Source: Planctomycetota bacterium
Lineage (GTDB): Bacteria > Planctomycetota > J058
DNA: 33,067 bases
Direction of reading: 5' to 3'
Assembly: GCA_003695705.1 (NCBI GenBank)
Contig: RFHU01000054.1
Span: 1 to 33,067, forward strand
Below, in pieces: positions 8,326 through 33,067 of this stretch (within the stretch, counting starts at the first letter, position 1; the number at the start of each line of letters is the position of its first letter). The translations under genes and the position numbers were made by a program. The notes beneath the pieces are model-generated. The model was not told where the DNA came from. It ran no database searches and worked only from the letters and a program-made list of their open reading frames with translations.

Positions 8326-8335
8326 GCAGGATCCA

Positions 8336-8358
8336 CGCGCGGCCTTCGCGGCCGCGCG
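8336..8358. terminator. Hairpin between convergent genes
   Basis: A perfect 9-bp stem, CGCGCGGCC (8336-8344) with GGCCGCGCG (8350-8358), around the loop TTCGC. It lies between the stop of the rightward tandem kinase (8325) and the stop of the leftward metallopeptidase gene (8383). This position suits a bidirectional terminator. No U-tract is visible on either strand. Confidence 0.55.
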
Positions 8359-8382
8359 CAGGCTGTCGAGGCCGCCGGGCGC

Positions 8383-12062: not shown

Positions 12063-14411
12063 ATGAGCGCGGCCACGCCGCAGCACGTAGGTCCCTACGC
12101 CGTCTTGGAAGAGCTCGGTCGCGGCGGCGCGGGGGTCGTGTATCGCTGCCGCGACCCGAGGAGCGGCGCCGACGTCGCCGTCAAGCTCCTCACGGCGCAG
12201 GGCAAGGCGTCTCCTCATCAACTCGCCCGTTTCCGGCGCGAGGTGCGCGCACTGAAGGCTCTCCTGCATCCGAACCTGGTTCGCCTGCTCGACGCCGGCG
12301 AGCATCAGGGTCGACCCTACTTGGTGCTCGAATACCTGCGCGGTCGCGACCTGCAGGAGCGCCTCGATCGCGGCGGTCCGCTCCTTCCCTGGGTGGCGGC
12401 GAGGATCGTGCACAAGGTGGCTACTGCGCTCGCCGTCGCCCACGCCCAGGGCCTGGTCCACCGCGACGTGAAGCCGGCGAACATCCTCCTCGTCCGCGCC
12501 GGCGAACCCGTCCTCCTCGACTTCGGCCTGGTGCGAAGCCTCGACCCCGCGGCCTCGCGGCTCACGGCCACCGGCGTGTTCGTGGGGACGCCCGGCTACT
12601 GGTCCCCCGAGCAGGCCGCCGGGAGCAAGACCGTCGGACCGCCCACCGACGTCTATGCCCTCGGAGCGACCCTCTACGCCGCCCTCACCGGCAGGCCGCC
12701 CTACGCGGGGGGAAACCTAATGGAGATCCTCCAAGCCATGCAAGCGCCGATTCCTCCGCCCTCGACCCTCGCCCCCGGCCACGTGCCCGAGCGCCTCGAA
12801 GGCGTCGTCCTGCGCGCCCTCGCCCGCGATCCTCAGGATCGCTATCCCCACGCCGGCGCCCTCGCCGACGCCCTTGCCGACGCCCTCGCCGTCCGGTCCG
12901 TGCGCCACCGCGCTGGCACGCCCGTTTCTTCGTTGTCCTATGCCTTGGCTGGCGCGGCCCTGGCTCTTGCCCTGATCGGTGGGGTCCTTCTCGTCGCCTC
13001 CGGCGGCGACCGCGGCACGCCCGGGGTTGCCTCGCGGACCGAGCACGACCCGGCGCGCGCCCCCCCTGGCGCCGACGACCCCGCGTCGCCGCGCGCCGAC
13101 GACCCGGAGGAGGAGCGCCCCGGAGCGCCCCGCGCGGCAGAGGGTCCGCGCACGGCCGGAGCCGAGCCTGCGCGTCCCCGCGCGGCGGCGAGCCCCCGAC
13201 CGTCGGTTCTGCTCCCCGCAAACGGCAGCTCCGAGCCCGAAGCCGCAGCCCGTCCCCGCTCCGGAGACGCCGCGGGAGGAGCTGTGGCCCCGCGGACCGA
13301 AGCGCTCTCCGAAGCCGCCGAAGTCGGCGCACCGTCGGCGCCGGCGGTGGAGGAGGCGGCGGACGAGGGGCCCGGCTCGCTGCGCCTGCGGGTGGAAGTC
13401 GAGGCCGCCTTCGCCCGGCGGGAGCTGCTCGAGGGCGTGGGCGCCCTCCCGCACTCGAACATGACTCCGGGGGCGGTGCACGTGTTCGGCCCGCGCGCCT
13501 TCGCCGTGCTCACCGGCCGCGCGCGGCAGGGGGGCGTGGCGGCTGCTCTCGTCGGCGCGGCCTTCGCCGGGAAGGGCCGTGCGCTGGCCCTTGGCCACGA
13601 CGCCTACCTCAAAGCCCAGGGGCAAGGGAACGGCTGGCAGGTCTCCTCCGAGACCCGGCGGTTCCTCCTCAACGGTCTTCGCTGGCTGTGCAAGGACCGC
13701 CCACTCGCAGGAATCCGCGTGGCCCTGACCGGCCCCTGCGAGCTGGTGGACTTCCTCGCGCGCCAGGGTGCGCGGCCGCTGCGCGTCTCGGCCCGCGCGC
13801 CGAGCCTCGCCGGCTGCGACCTCGTCGTCGTTCCCCACACGACCGTTCATCCGCTTCCCCCTGCCGCCGTCGCTGCCCTGCAGGACTTCGTCCGCGGCGG
13901 CGGCGGCTTGCTCACGGCCGTCACTGGCTGGGGCACCCAGCAGGTCTTGGAGAAGAAGGGGCCTTTCGTCCTTCGTCGCGACTTGCCCGCGCAGCGGATC
14001 CTCGCGCCCTTCGGTCTGGCCTTCGACGCGGACACCTACGTCGATCCGGTCGGCGGCCCCGGCTACCTCGTCGCGCGCTCGGAGGCCGAGCGCGTTCATA
14101 CCGGCAACGACCTCGAAGACATGGCCGCAGCCCGTCCGCTGCCCAGCGCCGACCGGCGGGCGGCGCTCTTGCGGGTGATCGCCTTGGCCGAGTGCAGCGC
14201 GCCCGATGACCCCCTCTTCGTGCCGCGCCTCCGCGCGCTGGCCTCCTTCCGCGCCTCGGCGGACGACCGACTGGCGACGGCGGTCCGCAGCGCCTTCCTC
14301 CAACTTCTCGAACAGCGCGATCGCGCCGACCGCCAGCTCCGAGGCGACGGACGCGGAGGGCGCCGCGTCCCGAGGTCGCGTCGCGGGGGCGTCGACGGAC
14401 GGAGGGACTAG
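12063..14411 (+). CDS. Membrane Ser/Thr kinase with TCAF/M60-like C-terminal domain
   Basis: A 782-aa protein from ATG 12063. The kinase domain (about 12-270) is complete: GRGGAGVVY, VAVK (K41), HRDVKPAN (D135), DFGL, GTPGYWSPEQ. A membrane helix follows at about 290-316 (ALAGAALALALIGGVLLVA), then an Ala/Pro/Glu-rich spacer to about 440. The rest (about 440-755) resembles the glutaminase-like domain of TCAF proteins and M60-type metalloproteases: GKGRALALGHDAYL, FLLNGLRWL, LQDFVRGGGGLLTAVTGW and ILAPFGLAFD. The M60 HExxH catalytic part is absent. So a cytoplasmic kinase is linked to an extracytoplasmic domain that may bind ligand or glycan. The last nine codons and the TAG stop lie inside the adjacent IS110-type repeat, so the native C-terminus is probably lost. 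The TCAF assignment is from remembered family patterns. Confidence 0.82.
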   Translation: MSAATPQHVGPYAVLEELGRGGAGVVYRCRDPRSGADVAVKLLTAQGKASPHQLARFRREVRALKALLHPNLVRLLDAGEHQGRPYLVLEYLRGRDLQERLDRGGPLLPWVAARIVHKVATALAVAHAQGLVHRDVKPANILLVRAGEPVLLDFGLVRSLDPAASRLTATGVFVGTPGYWSPEQAAGSKTVGPPTDVYALGATLYAALTGRPPYAGGNLMEILQAMQAPIPPPSTLAPGHVPERLEGVVLRALARDPQDRYPHAGALADALADALAVRSVRHRAGTPVSSLSYALAGAALALALIGGVLLVASGGDRGTPGVASRTEHDPARAPPGADDPASPRADDPEEERPGAPRAAEGPRTAGAEPARPRAAASPRPSVLLPANGSSEPEAAARPRSGDAAGGAVAPRTEALSEAAEVGAPSAPAVEEAADEGPGSLRLRVEVEAAFARRELLEGVGALPHSNMTPGAVHVFGPRAFAVLTGRARQGGVAAALVGAAFAGKGRALALGHDAYLKAQGQGNGWQVSSETRRFLLNGLRWLCKDRPLAGIRVALTGPCELVDFLARQGARPLRVSARAPSLAGCDLVVVPHTTVHPLPPAAVAALQDFVRGGGGLLTAVTGWGTQQVLEKKGPFVLRRDLPAQRILAPFGLAFDADTYVDPVGGPGYLVARSEAERVHTGNDLEDMAAARPLPSADRRAALLRVIALAECSAPDDPLFVPRLRALASFRASADDRLATAVRSAFLQLLEQRDRADRQLRGDGRGGRRVPRSRRGGVDGRRD

Positions 14412-14422
14412 GGTCCGCCTCG
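14408..14422 (+). repeat. Left inverted repeat of IS110-type copy 1
   Basis: CTAGGGTCCGCCTCG, matched perfectly in reverse complement at 14998-15012. Its TAG (14409-14411) is the stop codon of the TCAF-like kinase gene. The same sequence is present in copy 2 at 32534-32548. Confidence 0.9.
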
Positions 14423-14441
14423 CGCTGGTGCGGTGAAGGGT

Positions 14442-14467
14442 GCGTCCCTGGGGGCTTGCAGGGACGC
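14442..14467. ncRNA. Candidate guide RNA hairpin in the IS non-coding end
   Basis: Within the roughly 125-bp non-coding end beyond the transposase remnant, GCGTCCCTG (14442-14450) pairs perfectly with CAGGGACGC (14459-14467) around an 8-base loop. In copy 2 the matching arms (32568-32576 and 32585-32593) keep CCCTG/CAGGG, but two bases of the outer stem have changed. IS110-family elements encode a structured bridge (or seek) RNA in a non-coding end, in the IS1111 subgroup downstream of the transposase gene, which is where this lies. Expression and true RNA ends are unknown. Confidence 0.35.
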
Positions 14468-14534
14468 TCGTCGCCATGAGTCTGCTTCGAAAAGTTCGGT
14501 TGCCCCTGCCCCGTCGCGTCTTCGCCCGCGCGAG

Positions 14535-15008
14535 CTAGCCGGAGACGCTTCGAGGCGGACCTGAGGCCCGAGAGGCTGGAGGCGTGCGACGAGCCTGCGA
14601 GTCACAGGGAATCGCCCTCGAGAGGTGGTGCCGGATCGCATTGAGGATCGAGTGGGCGACGGCGACCTGGGCGCGCATGCTGCCGCGCTTGGAGGCGACC
14701 CCGCGGTATTGGCTCGAGAGATAGCCCTTGGTTCGGCGGAGGCCAAGCGCACCCATGACCCGTGCGCTGCGGAGCCACTTGTTGCCCTTGGTGGTCTTGC
14801 CGCTGAGCCGCTTGCCGGCGGACTGGTTGTTCCCAGGGTCGGCGTCGGCAGGGTCAGGGGCGTCGGAGAAGAGCGGGAGGTCGTCGGGAGGAGGCGGGGC
14901 CGGAGGCGGCGCGTTGAGCTCCAGGATCCGCTCGTCGATCTTGGCGGTTGAATTCCGATACGTGTCGATCCGCGGTGCGAGGGGCGATGGTCCACCTCGA
15001 GGCGGACC
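14535..15008 (-). pseudogene. IS110-family transposase C-terminal remnant, copy 1
   Basis: On the minus strand the frame reads a coiled linker (IDTYRNSTAKIDERILELN), then the Transposase_20 signature: PGNNQSAGKRLSGKTTKGNK, WLRSARVMGALGLRRTKGYL and RAQVAVAHSILNAIRHHL. This is the C-terminal helical domain of IS110/IS116/IS902 transposases, which holds the catalytic Ser in the family (the NNQSAG Ser here). The expected last segment, TRRLVARLQPLGPQVRLEA, appears only in the +1 frame, so a frameshift lies near 14625. The N-terminal RuvC-like DEDD domain is absent. The upstream in-frame stop is the same TAG that ends the 13-haem cytochrome gene, so readthrough would fuse the two. Confidence 0.85.
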
Positions 15009-15012
15009 CTAG
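14998..15012 (-). repeat. Right inverted repeat of IS110-type copy 1
   Basis: Reverse complement of the left repeat at 14408-14422, 15 of 15 bases. Read leftward its TAG (15011-15009) is the stop codon of the 13-haem cytochrome gene. Just inside it only about 20 codons of linker separate it from the recognisable transposase domain, which marks the internal deletion. Confidence 0.9.
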
Positions 15013-17753
15013 CGGCCCCCGTGCTGCGCTCCGGGCAAGACGATGGGCCGGCCCGGCTCGGCGCCCTCGGGGTGACAGTCGGCGCAGCCGCGGGGGGTGG
15101 AGAACTCGTGGGGCAGCGACGGTGCCACCGGCGGCGGGTACCCCTCCCCGTCGGGGTCGTGGTGGGGGACGAAGCTCGTGTCGACCTTCCCGTCGCGCCC
15201 CACGTAGGTGAAGTGGACTTCGCAGCCCGGAATGTGCGGATTGAGTCGCCCGCTCCGGTCGAGGCGCACGTCGGGCGGTCCCCAGATCAGCGCACGACCG
15301 CCCAGGGGACGCGGGTCGGCGGCTCCCGGGGTGAAGACGGCCCGCTGGCGCAGGGACCGCGTGTCGTAGTCCAATGCGCTGAGGAGCCAGTCCTGCGCGA
15401 ATTCTTCGGAGAAGTAGGTGGTGTGGCACGGGAGGCAGCGGGGAGCCTGTTGGTTGTGGCAGGCAGAACAGGCGAGCCGGTCGTGGCGTGCGTCCCGCGC
15501 CGCGGAGCAACCTCCCGAGGGCGCCGCCGGGGGGGTGGTGGCCTTGGGCGCCTTTGCCGCGGCGTCGCGCAGAAGCGGCGCCACGTGCTCGCGGCCGTCG
15601 AGGAAGGAGCGGACCACCACCCGCTCCCCCTCGCGTCGCCAGTTCGAGCGCGGGTTTCCGCGCGAGGTGAGGAGATGGCGCACGCCCTCGCGCTCGTAGA
15701 CCCCGCGCGGAGAGGTCCCCGCCGCCGGGGTGCCGTGGCCCACGGGCAGTTCCCAAGGCGCTGCTTCGCGGGTTCCGTGGCAATCCTCGCAGCGAACTTC
15801 GAGCTGGTGCGGAATCGCACCGTAGATGTTTCCGTCGCCGTGGACGTCGATGGAGGTGTGGCAGTCCACGCAGCCCACGCCCGCCTGCTGGTGGACGTCG
15901 CTGTGCAAAGTGAGTACGCCGCGCGTGTGGCAGTGGTTGCACTGCTCCTCGGGGATCGCCAGCACCAGGCGGTGCCGGAGGGGATGCCCGGGGCGGTCGT
16001 CGGGGACCGTGGGGTCGTCGTCGAAGGTTTGCCCGTCGGGTGCGTTCAGGACGTGGCAGGCCGAGCACCCCGAAGAGCGCCGTTCGCCGGTGGCCGCCTT
16101 CCCCTCGCCCCACAGATGGCAGCGCGCGCAGTCTTTGCGGTAGGTGTCGGCGTAGGCCGCCTGTACGGGATTCCCGGTGAGGGCCTCCGCCTCCTCGAAG
16201 GTGGGGTAGCCCTGGCCGCGATCGAGCCGGAGCAAGAAGCCCTGTTTCTCGGCACGAGCGATGAACTCGCGGTAGGCGGGGCTGCCGACGCAGGGAACGG
16301 CGCCGTCGGGGTCGTCGACGGCGAAGTCGGTGAAGCGGGGGCGGTCCTTCACCAGGCCGGCCGAGGCGGAGACGAGGAAGGCTTTGCCGGTCTCCTGGGC
16401 CATGAGCGCCCGCTGGATGCGGTACGCGTGGTTCCTTCCGCTGGCCCCGCTGGGGTCGGTCTGGCGTGAGACCACGCTCATGAGGGAGCCGCCGGTGGGC
16501 TCGGGCAGGGGCCGCCCGTGGAGGGTGGTCAGGGCCCCGCGGTCGGAGTGGCACTTGCCGCAGCCCAGGCCGATGCTCGTCGCCCACAGGCTGCCGGGGT
16601 TCGCCACGAGGCCCTCGTGCGCGCGTTCCTTGCTCGCCTCGCCGGCCCGTCCCTCGTGGCAAAGCACGCACTCCCGCTCGGCGTCGCCCCCCGAGAAGGC
16701 TGCGAGGGCCTCGGCCATGGCGCCGCTGGCGATGGCGCTGATGCCCTCGTGGCAGGCGAGGCAACCCTGCCGGCCGCCGGGCGCGCGGGAGAAGTATTCC
16801 GAGCGGGCAGGCTCCCAGCGCTCCTCGGACGCGCGGACCTCGCGGCGCGGTGCGGCGCGCGCCGCAGCCCGCCGCGCCGCGAAGAAGCGGTCCCAGGCGG
16901 CGCGGCGGGCCGCGTCGCCTTCGCGCACCAGGCGCTCGACGTGGGCCGCGAGGGCCCACAGGTCCTCTGCCGGGAGGTCGGAGGCGCCGGCCATCTTCGT
17001 TCCGGGACGGCCCAAGTAAATGGAACGCGCGATGTCTTCTTGGCGTGCTCCCCCGCGCAGCACCGCGGGGCCCCGTCGCAGGTCGGTGGGCGGACAGGGG
17101 CGTCCCTCGGCGTCGGCGAGGTCCTTCGCCGCAGGCCCGCGTCCGTCGCCGTCCGCTCCGTGGCAGAACGCGCAGCGCGCGGCGAAGACCTCCGCCCCCC
17201 GGGACGGATCGATGCGCTGGGGACGGGCCGGCAGCGGCGTCGGGCGGGCGAGGGCGGCGTCTTCCCCGCGCAGGGCGAGGACGAAGGCCACCAGGCTCCA
17301 GCGTTCGAAGGGCGAGAGGTGGGCGAAGGCCGGCATGCCCTGCGCGGGGGCGCCGGCGCTGAGGACGCGGTAGAGCTCGGAGGGCGCGATGGGGCCCTCG
17401 CGGTCGCGAGTCCGTAGCGCGCCGCCGGCGAGGTCTCGGGGGGGACGCACGAGCGACGAAGCGAGCGGCCCGTCGCCGCGCCCTCCGTTGCCGTGGCAGG
17501 CGGCGCAGCGGAGCAGGAAGGTGGCCTGCCCCGGGCCGACCCAGGCCGCCAGCGCCTGCGACGACGGGATCGCGCCCACTTCGATTGCCCAGGGAGTGGG
17601 GCGGGGCTCGTTGGTGGTCAGCCAGGCCAGCTCGGGCGCGGGTCGCGGTGGCGACTCCTGCGCGCAGAGGGGGGCGAGGACTGCGGTCGTCCCGAGCGCG
17701 ACCGACGCGCACAGAACGGTCCGCAGCGAACCCAGGCAACGGGTCACGTGCAT
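15009..17753 (-). CDS. Thirteen-haem periplasmic cytochrome c
   Basis: About 914 aa with a signal peptide (LRTVLCASVALGTTAVLAPL, then LCAQE). Thirteen CxxCH haem sites occur in order: CAACH, CAFCH, CLACH, CVLCH, CGKCH, CARCH, CSACH, CNHCH, CVDCH, CEDCH, CSACH, CLPCH, CADCH. The first two sit in class I-like monohaem domains with downstream Met candidates (AQGMPAF; GTKMAG); the other eleven form a multihaem part that is not a recognised enzyme (no CxxCK site). It should carry electrons in the periplasm between the NrfD/ferredoxin complex upstream and NapA or another acceptor. ATG 17753 is very close to its GGAGG; the GTG at 17747 has a better 7-base spacing and may be the real start. The stop codon lies in an IS repeat. 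Confidence 0.88.
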   Translation of the reverse strand: MHVTRCLGSLRTVLCASVALGTTAVLAPLCAQESPPRPAPELAWLTTNEPRPTPWAIEVGAIPSSQALAAWVGPGQATFLLRCAACHGNGGRGDGPLASSLVRPPRDLAGGALRTRDREGPIAPSELYRVLSAGAPAQGMPAFAHLSPFERWSLVAFVLALRGEDAALARPTPLPARPQRIDPSRGAEVFAARCAFCHGADGDGRGPAAKDLADAEGRPCPPTDLRRGPAVLRGGARQEDIARSIYLGRPGTKMAGASDLPAEDLWALAAHVERLVREGDAARRAAWDRFFAARRAAARAAPRREVRASEERWEPARSEYFSRAPGGRQGCLACHEGISAIASGAMAEALAAFSGGDAERECVLCHEGRAGEASKERAHEGLVANPGSLWATSIGLGCGKCHSDRGALTTLHGRPLPEPTGGSLMSVVSRQTDPSGASGRNHAYRIQRALMAQETGKAFLVSASAGLVKDRPRFTDFAVDDPDGAVPCVGSPAYREFIARAEKQGFLLRLDRGQGYPTFEEAEALTGNPVQAAYADTYRKDCARCHLWGEGKAATGERRSSGCSACHVLNAPDGQTFDDDPTVPDDRPGHPLRHRLVLAIPEEQCNHCHTRGVLTLHSDVHQQAGVGCVDCHTSIDVHGDGNIYGAIPHQLEVRCEDCHGTREAAPWELPVGHGTPAAGTSPRGVYEREGVRHLLTSRGNPRSNWRREGERVVVRSFLDGREHVAPLLRDAAAKAPKATTPPAAPSGGCSAARDARHDRLACSACHNQQAPRCLPCHTTYFSEEFAQDWLLSALDYDTRSLRQRAVFTPGAADPRPLGGRALIWGPPDVRLDRSGRLNPHIPGCEVHFTYVGRDGKVDTSFVPHHDPDGEGYPPPVAPSLPHEFSTPRGCADCHPEGAEPGRPIVLPGAQHGGR

Positions 17754-17778
17754 GCCTCCGGGCTTCGAGACGGCGCCG

Positions 17779-17806
17779 GCGCGCGCGGAGCCGAAGCCGC
17801 GCGCGC
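17779..17806 (-). terminator. Strong hairpin between nrfD-like and 13-haem genes
   Basis: A perfect 10-bp GC stem, GCGCGCGCGG (17779-17788) with CCGCGCGCGC (17797-17806), loop of 8 bases. It sits in the 161-bp gap between the nrfD-like stop and the 13-haem start. It could partly terminate the upstream transcript or act as a processing site, so lowering expression of the last gene. No U-tract follows. Confidence 0.45.
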
Positions 17807-17914
17807 CTGCCGAAGGTAGCGTACTCCGTCGGCGCAGGCCCCCCTTGCCGCGATCGCAGGGGCGAGTGCGCTGAGGTCCGCACTCCTCGGCGCGGGCCGC
17901 TCTGCGCGCCCGGC

Positions 17915-19189
17915 TCAGGCGCCCTCCGCTCCTCCGACGCGCTCGTCTCCCTGCAAGACCGGGACGGCCACCTTGAGCGCCACGGTGAAGACCATCAGGC
18001 CCAGGGCCCAGATGCCCGCCGAGATCTGCCACTCCACCAGGCTGGGGACGTACTCCACGACTTCGTGCAGGGTCGAGGGAATGAAGCCGGGAATGATGAG
18101 CCCCATGCCCTTCTCGATCCAAATGCCCACGAAGGAGAGGGCGCAGGCTGCGAGGAGGGGCCGGGGCCGCTCCGCCACACCGGGGAGGAGGAAGAGGAGC
18201 GCGCTGGCGACGCTGAACAGTAGCGAGGTCCAGGTCCAGGGAACCAGCGCGTGGTGGCCTTCGATTCCGAAGAACAGGTAGCGCGCCGAAGCGGTGTGGC
18301 TGCCGCCGGCGTAGAAATCGGTGAACGACTCCGAGACGAGCATCAGCAGGTTGATGAGCACGGTCACCCGGCAAATGTTCGTGAGCACCGAGATTGCTCC
18401 GGGGCGAACCGTGAGGCTGCCCCAGCGACGAAGGACCGCCAAGGAGACGATGAGGAAGGCCGGACCGGAGACGAAGGCCGAGGCGAGGAAGCGGGGCGCG
18501 AGGAGGGCGGTGTTCCAGAACGGCCGTCCGCCCAGCCCGCAGTAGAGGAAGGCGGTCACCGTGTGGATGGAGATGGCCCAGAAGATCGACACGAACACGA
18601 AGGGCAGGTACCAACGCTTCTCCGGCGTGCGTCCGAGGAAGCGCATGTAGAGCTGGTAGCCGCAGATGTGCAGGTTGAGGAGCAGGTAGCCGCCGAGGAC
18701 GATGACGTCCCAGGTGAGCATCGAGATCGGCCAGTTGAACCGGCCCACACCGGGAACGATGTGCCAGAAGCGGTCCGGGCGACCGAGGTCGACGGTCACG
18801 AACGCGAGGCACATGACGATGGCGGCGATGGCGAGGAGTTCGCCCACGATGGCGACGGAGTGCACGTCTCGGTCGTCGTAGAGGTAGGCGGGGATGACCA
18901 TCATCACGCCGCCCGCCGCGAGCCCGACCAGGAACGTGAAATTGGCGATGTAGAGCCCCCAGGAGACGTGATCGCTCATGTTCGTGACGATCATTCCGTC
19001 GCGAACCTGAACCGCCCAGGCGTGGGCGCCGACGAGGGCGACGGCGGTGAGGATCGTCATCCACGCGTAGAAGGCCGGGCTGCCTTCCGTCGCCAACCAG
19101 AGGGAGCGGAGCAAGAAGCGCGGGTAGTTGGTCGCGTGCGAGGGAGGCTCGCCGGAGGCGGGGAGTGCGTCGGCCGCGGAGGTGGTCAT
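17915..19189 (-). CDS. NrfD/PsrC-family quinol-interacting membrane subunit
   Basis: A 424-aa inner-membrane protein with about nine or ten helices. Family features include the N-terminal amphipathic start and first helix (FYAWMTILTAVALVGAHAWA), SWGLYIANFTFLVGLAAGG, the acidic VTVDLGRPDRFWH segment, and WPISMLTWDVIVLGGYLLLN. NrfD-type proteins (NrfD, PsrC, DsrP, HmcC, ActC) bind quinol within the membrane and exchange electrons with a partner ferredoxin subunit, here encoded directly upstream with a 2-bp gap. The long form with extra C-terminal helices is closest to DsrP/HmcC/ActC-type subunits. In this locus it most likely oxidises quinol to feed the cytochromes. Whether it also pumps protons, as proposed for some relatives, cannot be seen. 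Confidence 0.9.
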   Translation of the reverse strand: MTTSAADALPASGEPPSHATNYPRFLLRSLWLATEGSPAFYAWMTILTAVALVGAHAWAVQVRDGMIVTNMSDHVSWGLYIANFTFLVGLAAGGVMMVIPAYLYDDRDVHSVAIVGELLAIAAIVMCLAFVTVDLGRPDRFWHIVPGVGRFNWPISMLTWDVIVLGGYLLLNLHICGYQLYMRFLGRTPEKRWYLPFVFVSIFWAISIHTVTAFLYCGLGGRPFWNTALLAPRFLASAFVSGPAFLIVSLAVLRRWGSLTVRPGAISVLTNICRVTVLINLLMLVSESFTDFYAGGSHTASARYLFFGIEGHHALVPWTWTSLLFSVASALLFLLPGVAERPRPLLAACALSFVGIWIEKGMGLIIPGFIPSTLHEVVEYVPSLVEWQISAGIWALGLMVFTVALKVAVPVLQGDERVGGAEGA

Positions 19190-19191
19190 GG

Positions 19192-20109
19192 CTACTCGTC
19201 GAAGAAGTAGAAGAACTTGGGGCGCGTTCCCAGGTCTTCCTTGAGGACGTAGACCCGCTTGTTCTCGAGTACCCAGCGGATCTCGGAGGAAGGGTCCTGG
19301 AGGTTGCCGAAGACGCGGGCCCCGGTGGGACACGCTTCGAGGCATGCGGGCAGCCGGCCCACGCGGGTGCGGTGGAGGCAGAAGGTGCACTTCTCCATCA
19401 CGCCCTTGGGGCGAATTCGGTTGGAGAGGTAGCCCTGGTCGGGGTTGATCTCCTCGCTGGGGATCTCGGGCGCTTTCCAGTTGAAGCGCCGGGCGTGGTA
19501 GGGGCAGGCTGCTTCGCAATAGCGGCAGCCGATGCACCACCCGTAGTCCACCACGACGATTCCGTCGGGCTCCTTCCAGGTCGCCTCCACCGGGCACACC
19601 GCGACGCAGGGGGGATTCTCGCACTGGTGGCACTGCACCGGCATGTAGAACTTGTCCGGCTGCGGCACCGGGTGGTCGTAGTGGGCGTTGCCGCGCTCGA
19701 GGTCGAGCGATCCCTTCTCCATTTCCAGCACGCGGATGTAGCTGTTGCCGCTGGACCGGTCGTGGTTGTTCTCGCGGTGGCAGGCCTCCGCGCACTTGCG
19801 GCAGCCGATGCAAATGCTGAGGTTCAATGCGTAGGCGAAGGTGACCCCCTCCGTCGGAGCGGGGTCGTTGATTCGGACCTCCACGCCGTAGCGCTCGCGG
19901 GTTTCCTCCTCGAGGCGCCGGAAGAGTCGCTCCTTGTCCTCGGGAGAGAGTTCCTTGTAGTGCCTCTGGAGGAAGTCCTCGGCCGAGACCTCCTCGCTCC
20001 AGGCCGCGAGGGGGGCTAGGGCCTTGGCGAAGGCCGCCGCGCCGAGCGTCGCGCCCACGCCCTTGAGTACGGTCCGCCGATTCGCCAGCGGCAAGCGCCT
20101 ACTCGTCAC
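19192..20109 (-). CDS. Tat-exported four-cluster ferredoxin subunit (DsrO/HmcB/NrfC type)
   Basis: A 305-aa iron-sulfur protein. The N-terminus has a twin-arginine export signal (ANRRTVLKGVGATLGAAAF). Four cysteine groups for [4Fe-4S] clusters follow: CIGCRKCAEAC, CHQCENPPCVAVCP, CIGCRYCEAACPY and CTFCLHRTR plus CLEACPTG. The pattern and length match DsrO/HmcB/NrfC/PsrB subunits, which sit on the periplasmic face of an NrfD-type protein and pass electrons from quinol to a cytochrome. The gene begins at a GTG that overlaps the end of the tetrahaem cytochrome gene by 11 bases and ends 2 bp before the nrfD-like ATG, so the three are tightly coupled. The Tat signal means folded export with clusters inserted. 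Confidence 0.92.
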   Translation of the reverse strand: MTSRRLPLANRRTVLKGVGATLGAAAFAKALAPLAAWSEEVSAEDFLQRHYKELSPEDKERLFRRLEEETRERYGVEVRINDPAPTEGVTFAYALNLSICIGCRKCAEACHRENNHDRSSGNSYIRVLEMEKGSLDLERGNAHYDHPVPQPDKFYMPVQCHQCENPPCVAVCPVEATWKEPDGIVVVDYGWCIGCRYCEAACPYHARRFNWKAPEIPSEEINPDQGYLSNRIRPKGVMEKCTFCLHRTRVGRLPACLEACPTGARVFGNLQDPSSEIRWVLENKRVYVLKEDLGTRPKFFYFFDE

Positions 20110-20731
20110 CGTGCGCTCCTTCGGAGGGTCGGCCGTCGCGGGGCGGGAAGACCGGGAGGACCCGCGGGTAGGCGGGCGCGTGCGGGTCGTGGCAGTCGGT
20201 GCAGCCGTTGCGGACGCGGTCGCCGCGCGAGAGGTCCCAGAAGCCGGTCATGCCGCCGTGCGATCCGTGCCGGTAGTCGCGAGTTTGCGGTCCGTGGCAC
20301 TGGCCGCAGACCTGCATGACCTCTTGGAAGGGCACCGAGATCCCGTCGGGGCGGCGTAGGGAGTCGTAGTCGCCCGGGTCGTGGCACGCCAGGCAGCCCA
20401 CGTCTCCGTGGCGCACGACGAGTCCGCGGTGCATGCGGTCGAGGTCTTCCGAGCGCCTCGTTTCCGGGCGTGGCGGGCGCGTGGCGTGGCACGACGAACA
20501 CGCCACGCGGACCGGCTCGCCGCGCGCGTTCCGCCGTCCCGTGGCGACCGTGGGAGGGCCGGCGGGGCGGTGAATGCGTACTCGTCCGGTTGCCTTTCGG
20601 CCAGGCGCTGGGTTCCGCGCGGGCCGCCTCGGTTCTTGCGACCAGCCCAGGGTGCCTCCCACGCCGAGGGCGAAGAGGGCGGGGACGGCGAGGGCGACTC
20701 GGCGGCGCCAAAGGCTCGCGGCGGTCTTCAC
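20099..20731 (-). CDS. Tetrahaem periplasmic cytochrome c
   Basis: A 210-aa protein starting at a GTG with GGAGGTG 8 bases upstream. The N-terminus (WRRRVALAVPALFALGVGG) is a signal peptide or anchor. Four haem sites are present: CSSCH, CLACH, CGQCH and CTDCH, with nearby His residues (HRGLVVRH, RHGSHGGM) that could be distal ligands. The pattern resembles the small tetrahaem subunits next to NrfD/ferredoxin pairs rather than NapC/NrfH quinol dehydrogenases, because there is no NapC-type fold or membrane helix beside the first haem. It is the first gene of the leftward operon and should link the ferredoxin subunit to other cytochromes. Confidence 0.88.
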   Translation of the reverse strand: MKTAASLWRRRVALAVPALFALGVGGTLGWSQEPRRPARNPAPGRKATGRVRIHRPAGPPTVATGRRNARGEPVRVACSSCHATRPPRPETRRSEDLDRMHRGLVVRHGDVGCLACHDPGDYDSLRRPDGISVPFQEVMQVCGQCHGPQTRDYRHGSHGGMTGFWDLSRGDRVRNGCTDCHDPHAPAYPRVLPVFPPRDGRPSEGAHGDE

Positions 20732-20961
20732 GGACGGTCACCTCCGCGCGGCCCTTCGCAAACCGTGGGCCCGAGCCAAAGGCGCCGCGGACCGCCTCAA
20801 CGCGGCGGATGCGGCGAGGAGGCGTCACGTTCGTCGGACCTCGGGGTCCAGTGAGGAGCCGCCGCGTATCGTCTCCGCGACCCGGACGAGCCCCCATGCG
20901 CTGGCCGTTTGCCGAACGCCGCCCCGCGGTCGCCTCCGCGGCCGTTCCACGAGCGTGACAA

Positions 20962-21001
20962 GATCGCATCCCTTCGCTGTCCAAGGGGCAGCGTAGCGAT
21001 C
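20962..21001. promoter_or_regulatory. Compound inverted repeat in the nap control region
   Basis: Outer arms GATCGC (20962-20967) and GCGATC (20996-21001) enclose inner arms CGCTG (20975-20979) and CAGCG (20989-20993). A competing pairing, CCCTT (20970-20974) with AAGGG (20983-20987), excludes the inner stem. This could be a leader RNA able to switch or an operator for a dimeric regulator. It lies about 160 bp before napD. Confidence 0.4.
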
Positions 21002-21047
21002 GCGGTCGCCGGCACGTCTCCTGCTATTCCGCGCAGCCGACCGAGCG

Positions 21048-21082
21048 GTCGCGGAGCTCCTTGCCCCTGGAGCCTGCGCGAC
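21048..21082 (+). promoter_or_regulatory. Leader hairpin upstream of napD
   Basis: GTCGCG (21048-21053) pairs with CGCGAC (21077-21082), and inside it CTCC (21057-21060) pairs with GGAG (21069-21072), leaving the loop TTGCCCCT. It ends about 76 bp before the napD start, probably in the 5' leader. Function unknown; seen only as base pairing. Confidence 0.3.
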
Positions 21083-21158
21083 GTGCGGACAGCGGGGCGG
21101 GCCGCGGAGGCCTTTGCTCCCCACGACGAAGCGGCGAAAGAGCAACGGAGGCAGCCTC

Positions 21159-21407
21159 GTGCCCGTCAGCTCCCTACTCCTGCACCTCCCTCGCGAAGAG
21201 GAGCGCGCGCGCGCGCTCTTGGAGGAACTCGCGGCCCGCCCCGAATTCTGGGTGGGCCCGAGCGAGGGCCGACGCGCCGCCCTCGTCCTCGACACCCCAT
21301 CCGAGGAGGCCAACCGCCGCGCCTGGCGGTGGCTCCGCGATCACCCGGCGGCCGTCCACGTGGACGTCCTGGCCATTCACTTCGAAGACGCCGAGGCCGA
21401 ACGATGA
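21159..21407 (+). CDS. napD: NapD-like chaperone of the nitrate reductase
   Basis: An 82-aa cytoplasmic protein starting at GTG 21159 with GGAGG 7 bases upstream. The opening PVSSLLLHLP matches the NapD signature (VSSLVVH), and the rest fits its ferredoxin-like alpha/beta fold: a helix (REEERARALLEELA), strands ending in AALVLDTP, a second helix and a last strand (AVHVDVLAIHFED). NapD binds the twin-arginine signal of NapA and holds back export until the molybdenum cofactor is inserted. Its stop overlaps the napA start as ATGA, which suits one-to-one coupling with its client. An in-frame ATG at 21114 would add a charged extension not found in the family. Confidence 0.82.
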   Translation: MPVSSLLLHLPREEERARALLEELAARPEFWVGPSEGRRAALVLDTPSEEANRRAWRWLRDHPAAVHVDVLAIHFEDAEAER

Positions 21408-23827
21408 GCGACATGGACCGGAGGACCTTCCTGCGCAACGCCGCCATGGCGACTGCGGCCGCCGCCGTCGGCTCGACCTGGCCCGTCCGCGGCCAGGACC
21501 TCGAGTCCCGCGGCAAGCGCCTCCCGGGTGCCGAGGGCGTCGCCCCCTTGCCGGGCGTCGAGTGGCACAAGGCGCCGTGCCGCTTCTGCGGCACGGGCTG
21601 CCACGTGCAGGTCGGCGTCAAGGAGGGCAGGGTGGCGGCCATCGCCGGCGATCCCCAGGCTGCTGTCAACAAGGGCCTGCTGTGCGTGAAGGGCTACCAC
21701 GTGGGCGGAATCCTCTACGGAGAGGATCGCCTTCGCGAGCCGCTCCTGCGCAAGAACGGCAAGCTGGTGCCCATCGGGTGGGACGAGGCGATCGACATCA
21801 TCGCCCGACGCATCCTGCGCGCCCCCGAGAAGTTCGGCTTCTACGGCTCGGGGCAATGGACGATTCCCGAGGGCTTCGCCGCGCAGACCTTCATGAAGGC
21901 CGGCCTCTCGAACAACAACATCGAGCCCAACGCGCGCCTTTGCATGGCCTCGGCCGTCACGGGCTTCTTGAGCACCTACGGCGTCGACGAGCCCGCGAGC
22001 TGCTACGACGACCTGGACGTGTGCGACGTCGTCATCATGTGGGGGAACAACCCCGCGGAGATGCACCCGGTCCTCTTCAGCCGCATCGTCGATCGCCGCT
22101 CGCGCGGCGAGACGGTGCAGATCGTCGACCTGACCACCCGCACCACGCGGACCTCTCAGCAGGCGGACCGGGTCCTGTTCTTCGAGCCCGGCAGCGACTT
22201 GGCCGTCGCCAACGGCATCGCCCACATCCTCATCCGCGACGGCACCTGGGATCGCGAGTTCGTCGAGCGCTACTGCAACTTCCGCGGAGACTCGGACCCT
22301 CGGACGCTGTGGGGCAAGCCCATCACCTTCGACGAATACAAGGCCTTCGTGAGCGAATACACCCCCGAGAAGGTCGCCAAGATCTCGGGACTCTCGGTGG
22401 AGGACGTGGAGTTCCTCGGCAAGCTCTTCGGCGACCGCGAACGGAAGATCGTCAGCCTCTGGTGCATGGGCATGAACCAGCACACCCAAGGGACGGCCAT
22501 CAACAACCTGGTGCACGCCGTTCACCTGTTGAGCGGCCACTGGGGCAAGCCCGGAGACGGACCCCAGAGCCTCACCGGGCAACCCGCGGCTTGCGGCACC
22601 GCCCGCGAAGTGGGCACGCTCTGTCACGCGCTCCCCGGCGGCCGGGTGGTCATGAACGCCAAGCACCGCGAGCAGTGCGAGAAGCTCTGGAACGTCCCCC
22701 CGGGCCGGATCAAGGGAAAGCCCGGCCTGCACACCCTCGCCCTCTGGCGTGAGTTCTGTACTCCCGGCGGCGCCGTGGACACCATCTGGGTGCAGGTCAC
22801 CAATCCCGGCCAAAGCCTGCCGAACGCCCACGAGCTGTTCCTCAAGAAGAAGGATCTGCCCGAGAAGTTCCTCATCGTCAACGAGGTCTATCCGACGAAG
22901 ACCACCGAGCTGGCCGACCTGGTGCTCCCCGCCTCCCTGTGGGTGGAGAAGAACGGCGTCTACGGCAATTCGGAGCGGCGCACCCAGCAGTGGTTCAAGA
23001 TGGTCGAGCCGCCGGGGCAAGCCCGCGACGATTGCTGGACGACCATCGCGGTCGCCCATCGGCTCTACGAGCTCGGCTTCCCGGGCATGAAGGACAAGGA
23101 CGGAAAGTTCCTCTTCCGCGTCGAAGACGACGCAGGGAAGGAAGTCCCCGTGTGGAAGTGGGAGCACTACTACGACGTCAACGTGGACGAAGTCCTCTAC
23201 GAGCGCTACCGGCCGTTCACCCACATGAAGCACAAGAACGTGGCCCCCTACCGGGAACTGGTCAAGGCGCGCGGGCTCCGCTGGCCGGTGGTGGAGCAGC
23301 GCGACGGGAGCTGGCGCGAGACGCGCTGGCGCTTCGTCGAGGGCGATGACCCCTTCGTGGAGAAGGGCAAGGGGATCCAGTTCTACCACTCGCGCACCAA
23401 GGACGACCGGGCCTTGATCTGGTTCCGACCCTACGTACCGCCGCCCGAGGTCCCGGGCGACGGCTACGACATGTGGCTCTGCACGGGTCGCGTCCTCGAG
23501 CACTGGCACACGGGGACGATGACCGGGCGGGTTCCCCAGCTGCAGCGGGCCATGCCGCGCGCCTACGCCGAACTGCATCCCGAGGACGCCCGCGCCTTGG
23601 GGGTGAGCAACGGCGACGTGATCACCATCAGCACCCGGCGGGGCGAGATTCGCCTGCCGGTGTGGATCAACGGCCGGGGGAGGCCGCGCAAGGGCTCCAT
23701 CTTCGTTCCCTTTTTCGATGCGGAGACGCCCATCAACGAACTCACCAACGACGCCCACGACCCCTTCTCCAAGCAGCCCGACTACAAGAAGTGCGCCGTG
23801 CGCGTCGGGAAGCGAAGCCCCGAGTAG
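21404..23827 (+). CDS. napA: Periplasmic nitrate reductase catalytic subunit
   Basis: An 807-aa molybdopterin oxidoreductase. It has a Tat signal (DRRTFLRNAAMATAAAAVG), the [4Fe-4S] ligands CRFCGTGC (C59, C62, C66) and C94 in NKGLLCVKG, and the NapA-type stretch ARLCMASAVTGF with C180 as the probable molybdenum ligand, then CYDDLD and WGNNPAEMHPVLF. Late features are LPASLWVEKNGVYGNSERR, LEHWHTGTMTGRVP and the bis-MGD-binding C-terminal domain. These match NapA rather than formate dehydrogenase or NasA, and length is near the usual 800-830. It reduces nitrate to nitrite in the periplasm with electrons from NapB-type haems. A different oxyanion cannot be ruled out for a divergent member. The neighbours support nitrate respiration or electron disposal. 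Confidence 0.93.
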   Translation: MSDMDRRTFLRNAAMATAAAAVGSTWPVRGQDLESRGKRLPGAEGVAPLPGVEWHKAPCRFCGTGCHVQVGVKEGRVAAIAGDPQAAVNKGLLCVKGYHVGGILYGEDRLREPLLRKNGKLVPIGWDEAIDIIARRILRAPEKFGFYGSGQWTIPEGFAAQTFMKAGLSNNNIEPNARLCMASAVTGFLSTYGVDEPASCYDDLDVCDVVIMWGNNPAEMHPVLFSRIVDRRSRGETVQIVDLTTRTTRTSQQADRVLFFEPGSDLAVANGIAHILIRDGTWDREFVERYCNFRGDSDPRTLWGKPITFDEYKAFVSEYTPEKVAKISGLSVEDVEFLGKLFGDRERKIVSLWCMGMNQHTQGTAINNLVHAVHLLSGHWGKPGDGPQSLTGQPAACGTAREVGTLCHALPGGRVVMNAKHREQCEKLWNVPPGRIKGKPGLHTLALWREFCTPGGAVDTIWVQVTNPGQSLPNAHELFLKKKDLPEKFLIVNEVYPTKTTELADLVLPASLWVEKNGVYGNSERRTQQWFKMVEPPGQARDDCWTTIAVAHRLYELGFPGMKDKDGKFLFRVEDDAGKEVPVWKWEHYYDVNVDEVLYERYRPFTHMKHKNVAPYRELVKARGLRWPVVEQRDGSWRETRWRFVEGDDPFVEKGKGIQFYHSRTKDDRALIWFRPYVPPPEVPGDGYDMWLCTGRVLEHWHTGTMTGRVPQLQRAMPRAYAELHPEDARALGVSNGDVITISTRRGEIRLPVWINGRGRPRKGSIFVPFFDAETPINELTNDAHDPFSKQPDYKKCAVRVGKRSPE

Positions 23828-23830
23828 GCC

Positions 23831-24676
23831 ATGAGCGACGAAGCGCCCCCTTCTTCTGCCGAGTCCTCCACCGCGGACGCCCCCGATCCCGCCCCGGCGG
23901 ACGCCGCCGAGCCCGCCGCCCCGGACCGCAAGGCCCCAGGGTCCGCGTCCCCTCGGAGATCCCTCAAGGCCTACGGACTGATCGGCTACGGGGCCCTCTG
24001 CGTCGCCTTGGCCGGCTACGTCACCGGCCTTGCGCAGCTGAAGGAGCCGCCGCAGCGCAGCTTCTCCGCCCCGCCTCCGTCGCTTTCGGAGGAGGGCCTG
24101 CTCCCTGCGCCCAGCTACCGCGAGCTGCCCAATCTGCGCCGAGGCCCCAACGCCTCCTTCGAGAGCCGCATCGACGAACTGCGGGAAGACGTCCCCGCCC
24201 CCACCGACCCGGTCGTAGTCGATGAGGACCAGCGGCGCGCGGCGGCCGCAGCGCTCGCGGACCGCCGCGCCTACGAGGGCGCGCCGCCGCTCGTTCCGCA
24301 TCCGGTGGACGCCCAGGACGTCGCCGCGTGCCTGGTCTGCCACGAGGCGGGCAAGGACGTCGACGGAGTGCTTGCCCCCGCGGTCCCCCACGGCCACGAG
24401 CTGGGCAACTGCACGCAGTGCCACGCCCCGCCGGCCCCCACCTTCTTCGCGGCGGCCGAGCCACCGCCGGCCAACACCTTCGAGGGTGCGCGCGCTCCCC
24501 TCCACGGCGAACGAGCGCACCCGCTCGCGCCGCCGGTGATTCCCCACGCCACGCTGATGCGCGAGGACTGCCGGGCCTGCCACGGCGTACGCGCCCGACC
24601 CGGCCTCCGCACCACGCATCCCTGGCGGGTCAACTGCACGCAGTGCCACGCCTCCGGCACGGGCTTCGCCAGGTGA
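23831..24676 (+). CDS. Membrane-anchored tetrahaem NapB-like cytochrome
   Basis: A 281-aa protein 3 bp after napA. A Pro/Ala/Glu-rich cytoplasmic tail (about 45 residues) leads into one membrane helix (YGLIGYGALCVALAGYVTGL), and the rest lies in the periplasm. Four haem sites come in two pairs: CLVCH and CTQCH, then CRACH and CTQCH. The second pair, with PPVIPHATLMREDCRACHG and RTTHPWRVNCTQCH, is the canonical diheme NapB core; the first pair (VPHGHELGNCTQCH) resembles it. Classical NapB is soluble with two haems, so this looks like a duplicated or extended, anchored form that could replace both NapB and the haem part of NapC. It should donate electrons directly to NapA. The stop overlaps the next gene as GTGA. 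Confidence 0.88.
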   Translation: MSDEAPPSSAESSTADAPDPAPADAAEPAAPDRKAPGSASPRRSLKAYGLIGYGALCVALAGYVTGLAQLKEPPQRSFSAPPPSLSEEGLLPAPSYRELPNLRRGPNASFESRIDELREDVPAPTDPVVVDEDQRRAAAAALADRRAYEGAPPLVPHPVDAQDVAACLVCHEAGKDVDGVLAPAVPHGHELGNCTQCHAPPAPTFFAAAEPPPANTFEGARAPLHGERAHPLAPPVIPHATLMREDCRACHGVRARPGLRTTHPWRVNCTQCHASGTGFAR

Positions 24677-25311
24677 CCGCCTTTCGTCGCCGCGAACTGC
24701 TGGGAGGAGCCTTCCTCCGCCGCCTGGCGGCGCAGCGAGTCGCTTCGCGCCCGGCGACCGGCAACGCCACGCGACCGGCGCCGGTGGCCCGCGTCGGGGC
24801 CCCGGCCCGCAGAGCCCGCGTCCTGCCCCTCCTCCGACCGCCCGGCGCCATCGCGGAAGAGCGCTTCCTCGAGCGCTGCACCCGCTGCGGCGACTGCCTG
24901 AGCGCGTGCCCGACCGGTGCCCTGCGGCCCTTGCCCCCCGCGCGCGGGCCACGGGCCGGCACCCCCGTCCTCGACTTCGAGCACGGCCCCTGCGTCCTGT
25001 GCGCGGACCGCCCCTGCGCGGCGGCCTGCACGCCCCGCGCCCTCGACCCCCTCCTCCCCGCGGACATGGGCCGGGCGCGCATCGACCCCCTCTCCTGCCT
25101 GGCCGCGGCCGGCAGTCCCTGCTCGATTTGCGCGGAGCGTTGCCCCATCGAGGGAGCTCTAACCCTAGACAGAACAGGGCCTCCCCAGGTCTCCCCCGCT
25201 CTGTGCACGGGTTGCGGCGTTTGCCAGCATGTCTGTCCCGCGCCGCAGAATGCGGTCATGATCTTGCCGGTCGCACAACGGCCCGAACCCAGGGAGGAAC
25301 GGATCGCGTGA
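24673..25311 (+). CDS. napF: NapF-like polyferredoxin
   Basis: A 212-aa protein starting at a GTG overlapping the preceding stop. A basic opening (FRRRELLGGAFLRRLA) and a linker end in RPPGAIAEERFLERCTRCGD, typical of NapF. Four cysteine groups are visible: CTRCGDCLSACP, CVLCADRPCAAAC, CSICAERCP with a Cys nine residues earlier, and CTGCGVCQHVCP. NapF is a cytoplasmic ferredoxin linked to NapA maturation or cluster loading; the related NapG is exported. The RRRELLGG sequence could be a Tat signal, though no clear hydrophobic core or cleavage site follows, so a cytoplasmic NapF is preferred. No membrane ferredoxin NapH is encoded. The stop overlaps the next start as GTGA. Confidence 0.82.
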   Translation: MTAFRRRELLGGAFLRRLAAQRVASRPATGNATRPAPVARVGAPARRARVLPLLRPPGAIAEERFLERCTRCGDCLSACPTGALRPLPPARGPRAGTPVLDFEHGPCVLCADRPCAAACTPRALDPLLPADMGRARIDPLSCLAAAGSPCSICAERCPIEGALTLDRTGPPQVSPALCTGCGVCQHVCPAPQNAVMILPVAQRPEPREERIA

Positions 25312-25628
25312 CGGTCGAGTTGCCTGAATTGCAGCAAGAGATCATCGATGCCTCCACGCTCGAGCGCCTGCTCGACGACCTGGCCGCTTGCGCCGAGGAC
25401 CTCGAGGTCCTCCCCAAGCGGGGTCGTCACCGGCCCTGCGAGCCCGGAGGGAGCGAGTGGACCCTCGCCGCGACGCGGGAGGCCCTGCTCTGCGGCGAAC
25501 TGCACGGAGTGCAGTTCCGCTACCGCCATCAGGGACAAGCCTGGTGCGACACGGTCCTCCCGGCGCCCGGTGGCTGGCGGCTGACGCGCATGGCGCTCGG
25601 CGCCAGCAGTCCGCCCGGAACGCCCTGA
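25308..25628 (+). CDS. Uncharacterised 106-aa protein ending the nap operon
   Basis: Not recognised. It starts at GTG 25308 inside the napF stop (GTGA), so it is coupled to napF. There is no signal peptide or membrane helix, so it is probably cytoplasmic. The first half is acidic and helical (LERLLDDLAACAEDLEVLPK); the second has short strands (HGVQFRYRHQGQAWCDTVLP, then GWRLTRM) that could form a small beta sheet. Three or four Cys residues do not make a standard cluster motif. Position suggests an assembly or regulatory role for the reductase, but that is inference. It converges with the gene at 25882. Confidence 0.72.
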   Translation: MTVELPELQQEIIDASTLERLLDDLAACAEDLEVLPKRGRHRPCEPGGSEWTLAATREALLCGELHGVQFRYRHQGQAWCDTVLPAPGGWRLTRMALGASSPPGTP

Positions 25629-32510: not shown

Positions 32511-33067
32511 GGGGGCGTCGACGGACCGAGGGACTAGGGTCCGCCTCGCGCTGGTGCGGTGAAGGGTGCGTCCCTGGGGACTTGCAGGGCTGCTCGTCGC
32601 CATGAGTCTGCTTCGAAAAGTTCGGTTGCCCCTGCCCCGCCGCGTCTTTGCCCGCGCGAGCTAGGCCGGAGACGCTTCGAGCCTGACCTGATGCCCGAGA
32701 CGCTGGAGGCGTGCGACGAGCCTGCGAGTTACAGGGAATCGCCCTCGAGAGGAGGTGCCGGATCGCATTGAGGATCGAGTGGGCGACGGCGACCTGGGCG
32801 CGCATGCTGCCGCGCTGGGCGGCGAGCCTGCGGTATTGGCTCGAGAGGTAGCCCTTGGTTCGGCGGAGGCCACGCGCAGCCATGACCCGTGCGCTGCGGA
32901 GCCACTTGTTTCCCTTGGTGGTCTTGCCGCTGAGCCGCTTGCCGGCGGACTGGTTGTTCCCAGGGCCGGCGTCGTCAGGGTCAGGGGCGTCGGAGAAGAG
33001 CGGGAGGTCGTCGGGAGGAGGCGGGGCCGGAGGCGGCGTGTTGAGCTCCAGGATCCGCTCGTCGATC
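32511..33067. mobile_element. IS110-family element, copy 2, cut by window end
   Basis: It matches 14385-14940 with about 23 substitutions and one inserted base. It has the same left inverted repeat (32534-32548), the same non-coding end and the C-terminal part of the transposase. The window ends inside the transposase, so whether the catalytic N-terminal domain and the right end exist cannot be told. Confidence 0.85.
32661..33067 (-). pseudogene. IS110-family transposase C-terminal part, copy 2
   Basis: The minus-strand frame reads from the window edge through IDERILELN, PGNNQSAGKRLSGKTTKGNK, MAARGLRRTKGYLSSQY and RAQVAVAHSILNAIRHLL. Then, as in copy 1, the conserved end (TRRLVARLQRLGHQVRLEA, stop at 32661) continues only in the +1 frame. 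Without the shift the frame would run on far past the element. Residues here fit the family slightly better than copy 1 (RRLAAQRG versus RGVASKRG), so copy 2 may be less decayed. Its N-terminal domain lies outside the window, so full inactivation is not proven. Confidence 0.75.

Follow-up and report, generated by a model that had tools for sequence, protein, structure and literature searches.

Nitrate reductases of the Nap type are, in the textbook systems, supplied with electrons by NapC or NapGH. Here we analyse a nap locus (positions 15009–25628) on contig RFHU01000054.1 of the Planctomycetota assembly GCA_003695705.1, the whole 33,067-nt contig being referred to below as the window. Beside its nap genes lie those for a tetrahaem c-type cytochrome, a DsrO-like ferredoxin and a DsrP-like membrane protein of the NrfD family, together called the triad. 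An earlier note on this DNA had raised the possibility of an undescribed Nap type. We conclude that the locus probably represents a distinct type, whose quinol dehydrogenase would be the triad in place of NapC or NapGH.

The closest described systems each share part of this design. With NapABC and NapGH systems (napFDAGHBC in E. coli; napEDABC in Paracoccus or Cereibacter) the locus has in common the napD–napA–napB order, the Mo-Cys and [4Fe–4S] of NapA and a ferredoxin of the NapF/NapG family, but it differs in that no NapC or NapH was found in the window or, over family cut-offs, in its genome, NapB is tetrahaem rather than dihaem, the triad and a small gene (orfX) are added, and NapA belongs to a clade of its own. 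E. coli NrfABCD (pentahaem NrfB, ferredoxin NrfC, membrane protein NrfD) is alike in its cytochrome–ferredoxin–NrfD order and in the proposed direction from quinol to a periplasmic cytochrome; here, however, NapA and not NrfA is the terminal enzyme, the cytochrome is tetrahaem rather than pentahaem, and the membrane subunit is of the DsrP type, with about ten transmembrane helices, and is not matched to E. coli NrfD by BLAST. The DsrMKJOP complex, known from sulfate reducers and sulfur oxidisers, shares a DsrP that exceeds the equivalog cut-off, a DsrO close to its own and a cytochrome–O–P order like J–O–P, but the cluster lacks DsrM, DsrK and DsrJ, its cytochrome has four haems against three in DsrJ, and no dsrA was found in the genome, so that a sulfur-type reading was rejected. 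Finally, D. desulfuricans-type NapCMADGH and the Nap of Caldithrix abyssi (tetrahaem NapM, NapGH and Rieske/cytochrome b) also have a NapA-linked tetrahaem cytochrome, in Caldithrix without NapC, but they keep NapGH, lack NapB and have no NrfD module (PMC5317091).

The only precedent that we found is a single sentence reporting an NrfD-type cluster downstream of nap in two Planctomycetota metagenome-assembled genomes from the Oslofjord, OFTM8 and OFTM33 (PMC10732223), which are L100 and L099, respectively, in our locus set. That paper reads the cluster as part of one resembling alternative complex III (ACIII), and proposes no Nap type, distribution or electron route. A review of the NrfD family does not mention Nap (PMC8076601), and no other description was found in a literature search that left out subscription journals, where an earlier account is possible. 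The arrangement is undescribed, or nearly so, and widespread.

Gene content of the locus

A 427-bp gap (20732–21158) separates a leftward set of four genes, of which the tetrahaem cytochrome gene is nearest to the gap, from a rightward set that runs from napD to orfX:

15009–17753, minus strand: 13-haem c-type cytochrome, MHC13 (13 CXXCH)
17915–19189, minus strand: DsrP-like NrfD-family membrane protein (Pfam NrfD, NCBIfam DsrP), proposed quinol-oxidising subunit
19192–20109, minus strand: DsrO/NrfC-like ferredoxin with four [4Fe–4S] clusters (four Cys motifs; Tat-like start NRRTVLKG)
20099–20731, minus strand: tetrahaem c-type cytochrome, TET (four CXXCH; N-terminal membrane anchor or signal)
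20732–21158, no strand: divergent intergenic region with one imperfect hairpin at 20793–20824
about 21159–21407, plus strand: napD, NapA signal-peptide chaperone (homologues match Pfam NapD)
21404–23827, plus strand: napA, catalytic Mo-bisPGD/[4Fe–4S] subunit (NapA models, PDB match, Mo-Cys motif)
23831–24676, plus strand: NapB-like electron-transfer subunit with four haems, not two (Pfam NapB)
24673–25311, plus strand: NapF/NapG-family ferredoxin, no visible export signal (NapG and NapF models below cut-offs)
25308–25628, plus strand: orfX, conserved protein of about 100 residues, last gene of the nap operon in many loci (found in 64 loci examined)

All genes named in the earlier note are open frames at the positions and in the directions that it gave. 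Its rightward list was right as far as it went and left out orfX, while its napF is indeed a NapF/NapG-family ferredoxin, with a higher score for NapG (94 bits) than for NapF (64 bits), both under the cut-offs, and with no export signal visible at its N-terminus. An Rfam scan of the window returned nothing.

The window NapA is, judged by its sequence, a genuine NapA in kind. It has a Tat start, an N-terminal [4Fe–4S] site and the Mo-Cys ligand motif NARLCMASAV, is 44% identical to E. coli NapA, whose structure 2nya is its best PDB match (7e-218), and scores 840–869 bits with NapA models (869 bits with PRK13532, curated cut-off 904), slightly under the equivalog cut-offs of 904–931. The napD product alone gave no Pfam match, and its assignment follows from Pfam NapD being matched by 11 of 16 aligned homologues. 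The NapB-like protein is above the Pfam NapB cut-off (37.5 bits) and yet carries four haems where NapB has two, and four CXXCH motifs are found in 93 of its 98 homologues.

In the triad, the membrane protein matches Pfam NrfD (1.1e-36) and exceeds the cut-off of the NCBIfam DsrP equivalog NF045798 (429 bits; cut-off 350), a model matched at E ≤ 1e-20 by all 18 nap-linked homologues tested. An AlphaFold2 model of it (pLDDT 73.8) shows some ten membrane helices, and Foldseek ranks ActC of ACIII as the best match (TM 0.70). It is the only full-length copy in the window genome, which has a distant NrfD-family relative elsewhere. Ser156 and Asp161, invariant among 18 aligned homologues, are spaced like S124 and D129, the proposed quinone-site residues of D. 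vulgaris DsrP1 (PMC8076601), which hints at a similar site at motif level only, the D. vulgaris sequence lying outside the alignment. The ferredoxin scores 184 bits with DsrO, just under the cut-off of 200, and is 34% identical to E. coli NrfC; a simple pattern search finds an RR motif in 120 of 126 homologues. Membrane protein and ferredoxin hence group with the DsrP and DsrO subunits of DsrMKJOP. The tetrahaem cytochrome, with four CXXCH in 116 of 119 homologues, weakly matches an NrfB-like profile (95% probability, largely driven by the haem motifs). Its start is hydrophobic in the window and lipobox-like in three other loci (L042, L119 and L127), and from these sequences we infer that it is membrane-tethered. 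Because the nap-linked DsrP-like protein passes the cut-off for the DsrP of sulfate reduction, automatic annotation would name a DsrMKJOP subunit in genomes free of dsr.

Linkage of the triad to nap and phylogeny

With DsrP alone as bait, one scan of named genomes yielded 80 loci. They belong to Planctomycetota, Verrucomicrobiota, Myxococcota and Sumerlaeota, and among the isolates represented are Rhodopirellula sallentina, R. maiorica, Adhaeretor mobilis, Stieleria tagensis, Haloferula rosea and Archangium violaceum. A napA of the window type was found in 67 of the 80 and napD, at the contig edge, in one more (L145); 11 loci are cut by a contig end, and L137, where an octahaem HAO-family cytochrome adjoins the triad, is the only one with full context that has no nap. 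The arrangement is widespread and, since it recurs in dozens of genomes, not due to chance. Counted over all loci examined, some from the same genomes, the order is divergent in 72, co-directional with DsrP first in 16 (DsrP-to-napA distance 299–544 bp in 12 of them) and with napA first in 7, the last being the order in Prosthecobacter-type loci; the tetrahaem cytochrome adjoins DsrO in nearly all. Three orders with the same partners argue for a link in function, and not merely for shared ancestry of one layout.

Both trees that had been suggested, for NapA and for the NrfD-family protein, support nap-linked clades. Triad-linked NapAs fall into a single clade (61 rows, SH-aLRT 100), separate from NapC-type and other planctomycete NapAs, and every NapA of this clade that was examined accompanies the triad. 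In the DsrP tree, built without true DsrP of sulfate reducers, members of the nap clade (91 rows, SH-aLRT 98) are nap-linked or at a contig end, L137 excepted, and a sister clade (14 rows, SH-aLRT 95) mostly has an octahaem cytochrome next to DsrP.

Search for NapC and NapH

That the locus has neither NapC nor NapGH, as the earlier note stated, holds for the window, and no protein of the NapC/NirT family or NapH passed the cut-offs in the rest of its genome (564 contigs, 88% complete). Those weak matches there that could be read were rejected: the NapC match L001 proved to be a 22-haem cytochrome and L004 a larger fused membrane polyferredoxin, while L002 is a polyferredoxin containing TPR-like repeats, L005 CcoG-like in appearance and L006 a cytochrome b-type protein; L003, the remaining weak NapH match, lies below the cut-off. 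NapH over the cut-off was found in none of 392 genomes of the phylum. Window-type NapA, defined there as a match over 1000 bits, occurs in 32 genomes; 30 of these have DsrP, and in the other two the nap contigs end before the DsrP position. No NapC/NirT match at E ≤ 1e-6 was found in 13 of the 32, among them G152 and G367, which are single-contig genomes, 99% complete. The absence of NapC/NirT matches from these 13 and of NapH over its cut-off from all 392 indicates that this NapA type exists without detectable NapC or NapH, and the locus falls under neither NapC-dependent nor NapGH-dependent Nap.

Proposed electron route and alternative explanations

Linkage, and the failure to detect NapC or NapH, make the NrfD module the most likely candidate for the quinol dehydrogenase, the role that the earlier note gave it. 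The sequences show the gene identities, the linkage, the clade structure and the non-detection of NapC and NapH, whereas the direction and route of the electrons, the type of quinone and any proton translocation by DsrP are matters of inference. Menaquinol would be oxidised at DsrP. Via its four clusters, the exported DsrO-like ferredoxin would hand the electrons to the tetrahaem cytochrome at the membrane, from which they would reach tetrahaem NapB and then the [4Fe–4S] and Mo of NapA, which would reduce nitrate to nitrite; NapD and the NapF/NapG-like protein, which is probably cytoplasmic, would serve maturation. The single chain of 21 haems and at least eight iron–sulfur clusters envisaged earlier is not supported, as MHC13 is not part of the core and the NapF/NapG-like ferredoxin has no export signal; the conserved core comprises 4 + 4 haems, the four clusters of DsrO and that of NapA.

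Several points weigh against the triad as the dedicated donor to Nap. A divergent layout is no proof of co-expression, and the NapA and DsrP trees were quick searches with SH-aLRT support only. A NapC/NirT-family protein, in many cases NrfH-sized, is encoded somewhere in 19 of the 32 genomes with window-type NapA, and in the window genome napC may have been missed, given its 88% completeness. NapB could in principle also receive electrons from a bc1 or ACIII-type complex via a soluble carrier. Were NapA and NapB indeed fed by a complex of this kind, bc1-type, ACIII or an unrecognised NapC analogue, the leftward genes would be a separate respiratory or sulfur-type system that merely shares the promoter region. 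The predominance of divergent loci, the NCBIfam naming of the membrane subunit after DsrMKJOP and the distant NrfD-family relative elsewhere in the genome are consistent with this, but we consider it improbable in view of the co-directional single-operon order, seen in at least 12 loci, and the third order found elsewhere, the near-exclusive co-occurrence of triad and window-type napA, and the lack of dsrA in the genome and of DsrMKJ beside the triad. Still less credible, and in our view very improbable, is that the tetrahaem cytochrome itself acts as quinol dehydrogenase in the manner of NapC, DsrOP being an accessory. The window protein does have four haems and an N-terminal membrane segment, and among 12 homologues one weakly matches NapC/NirT (4e-6), but the window protein falls far short of the Pfam cut-off for NapC/NirT (12.9 against 24.1 bits), the three homologues with lipobox-like starts have these in place of a transmembrane helix, and the gene keeps its place next to DsrO almost throughout.

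The triad might also be a general electron port for several periplasmic acceptors (Nap, an octahaem HAO-family nitrite/hydroxylamine reductase and perhaps MHC13), with Nap as one client that may use other donors; we regard this as possible, at somewhat less than even chances. In planctomycete sister loci (L175–L183) the gene after the triad encodes an octahaem cytochrome of the HAO family and napA is absent, so the earlier caution that one end of the locus may serve another acceptor was sensible. This cytochrome matches PF13447, and its best PDB match is 4qo5 (180 bits, against at most 67 bits for HAO proteins). Triad, octahaem cytochrome and napA occur together in five loci (L063–L065, L072 and L073), octahaem and napAB with no triad nearby in five others (L067, L068, L070, L071 and L075), and in the window MHC13 occupies the octahaem slot. 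Against a port of this generality, the octahaem-linked DsrP clade is separate from the nap-linked one, which suggests specialisation, neither an octahaem HAO-family match nor NrfA was found in the window genome, and adjacency of MHC13 is confined to one family. The sister loci nevertheless suggest that the triad supplies more than one kind of N-oxide reductase with electrons from quinol, and its pairing with the octahaem cytochrome, on the gene neighbourhoods, may be an undescribed quinol-linked nitrite/hydroxylamine reductase arrangement. Genomes with the triad beside octahaem include family f45, which may be the anammox group.

The 13-haem cytochrome and orfX

MHC13 consists of two cytochrome c/cbb3-type domains and an ExtM-like part with 11 haems; its Pfam matches are Cytochrome_CBB3/Cytochrom_C and C7, and it scores 141 bits with ExtM, below the cut-off. 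The 11-haem part is 36–46% identical to standalone cytochromes in further families of the phylum (f45, f93 and f97). Homologues occur in 34 of 372 genomes of the phylum; the gene adjoins DsrP only in the window and L038, lies 3 kb away in L044, these three genomes being of one family, and is elsewhere apart from nap. A place in the core was rejected on this distribution, which makes MHC13 a lineage-specific neighbour; as an extra of this lineage it would perhaps be a second outlet of the triad, with no link to NapA. Between DsrP and the 13-haem gene of L044 (about 8300–9800), genes that read as ScdA/RIC-like and hemerythrin-like point to nitric oxide stress near the operon. Of the standalone 11-haem homologues L223, L225 and L226 (f97, f45), the latter two are near thioredoxin-like and radical-SAM genes. 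In the window, a 540-bp direct repeat (14402–14940 and 32528–33067, 96% identical), whose sequence resembles the C-terminal portion of an IS110-family transposase, has one copy beside the 13-haem gene and the other at the contig end.

The orfX gene ends the nap operon across three phyla, and its product has near-invariant D19, Q64, Y67, W74, D76, T77 and R89. It matches no family in Pfam or NCBIfam, and its AlphaFold2 model (pLDDT 85.6) gave no match below E = 0.1 in a fold search against the PDB. We propose it as a candidate new Nap maturation factor.

Implications for nitrate respiration

Beyond the locus itself, we see about even chances that this is a Nap class spread over at least four phyla, in which the DsrP module would link the oxidation of menaquinol to the reduction of nitrate, perhaps with energy conservation, in contrast to NapC, and would have been swapped between nitrate reductase and octahaem nitrite/hydroxylamine reductases. 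Since NrfD-family modules may be electroneutral, electrogenic or energy-driven (PMC13059093), we make no claim of energy coupling for the triad. In the cultured planctomycete strain ZRK32, which may or may not carry the triad, napA and napB transcripts are raised by nitrate (PMC10945688).

Annotation would credit genomes that have triad and Nap with an incomplete Nap or a sulfur-type DsrP, although what they encode would be a complete, different quinol–nitrate chain. With a compact gene set that occurs in cultured Rhodopirellula, Adhaeretor, Haloferula and Archangium, the proposal is testable. Models of energy gain from nitrate in Planctomycetota, Verrucomicrobiota and Myxococcota will probably have to be revised. 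Energy coupling is a role for which proteins of the NrfD family are candidates (PMC8076601), QrcABCD being electrogenic (PMC13059093), and estimates of how much ATP these abundant bacteria obtain from nitrate respiration may therefore be too low.

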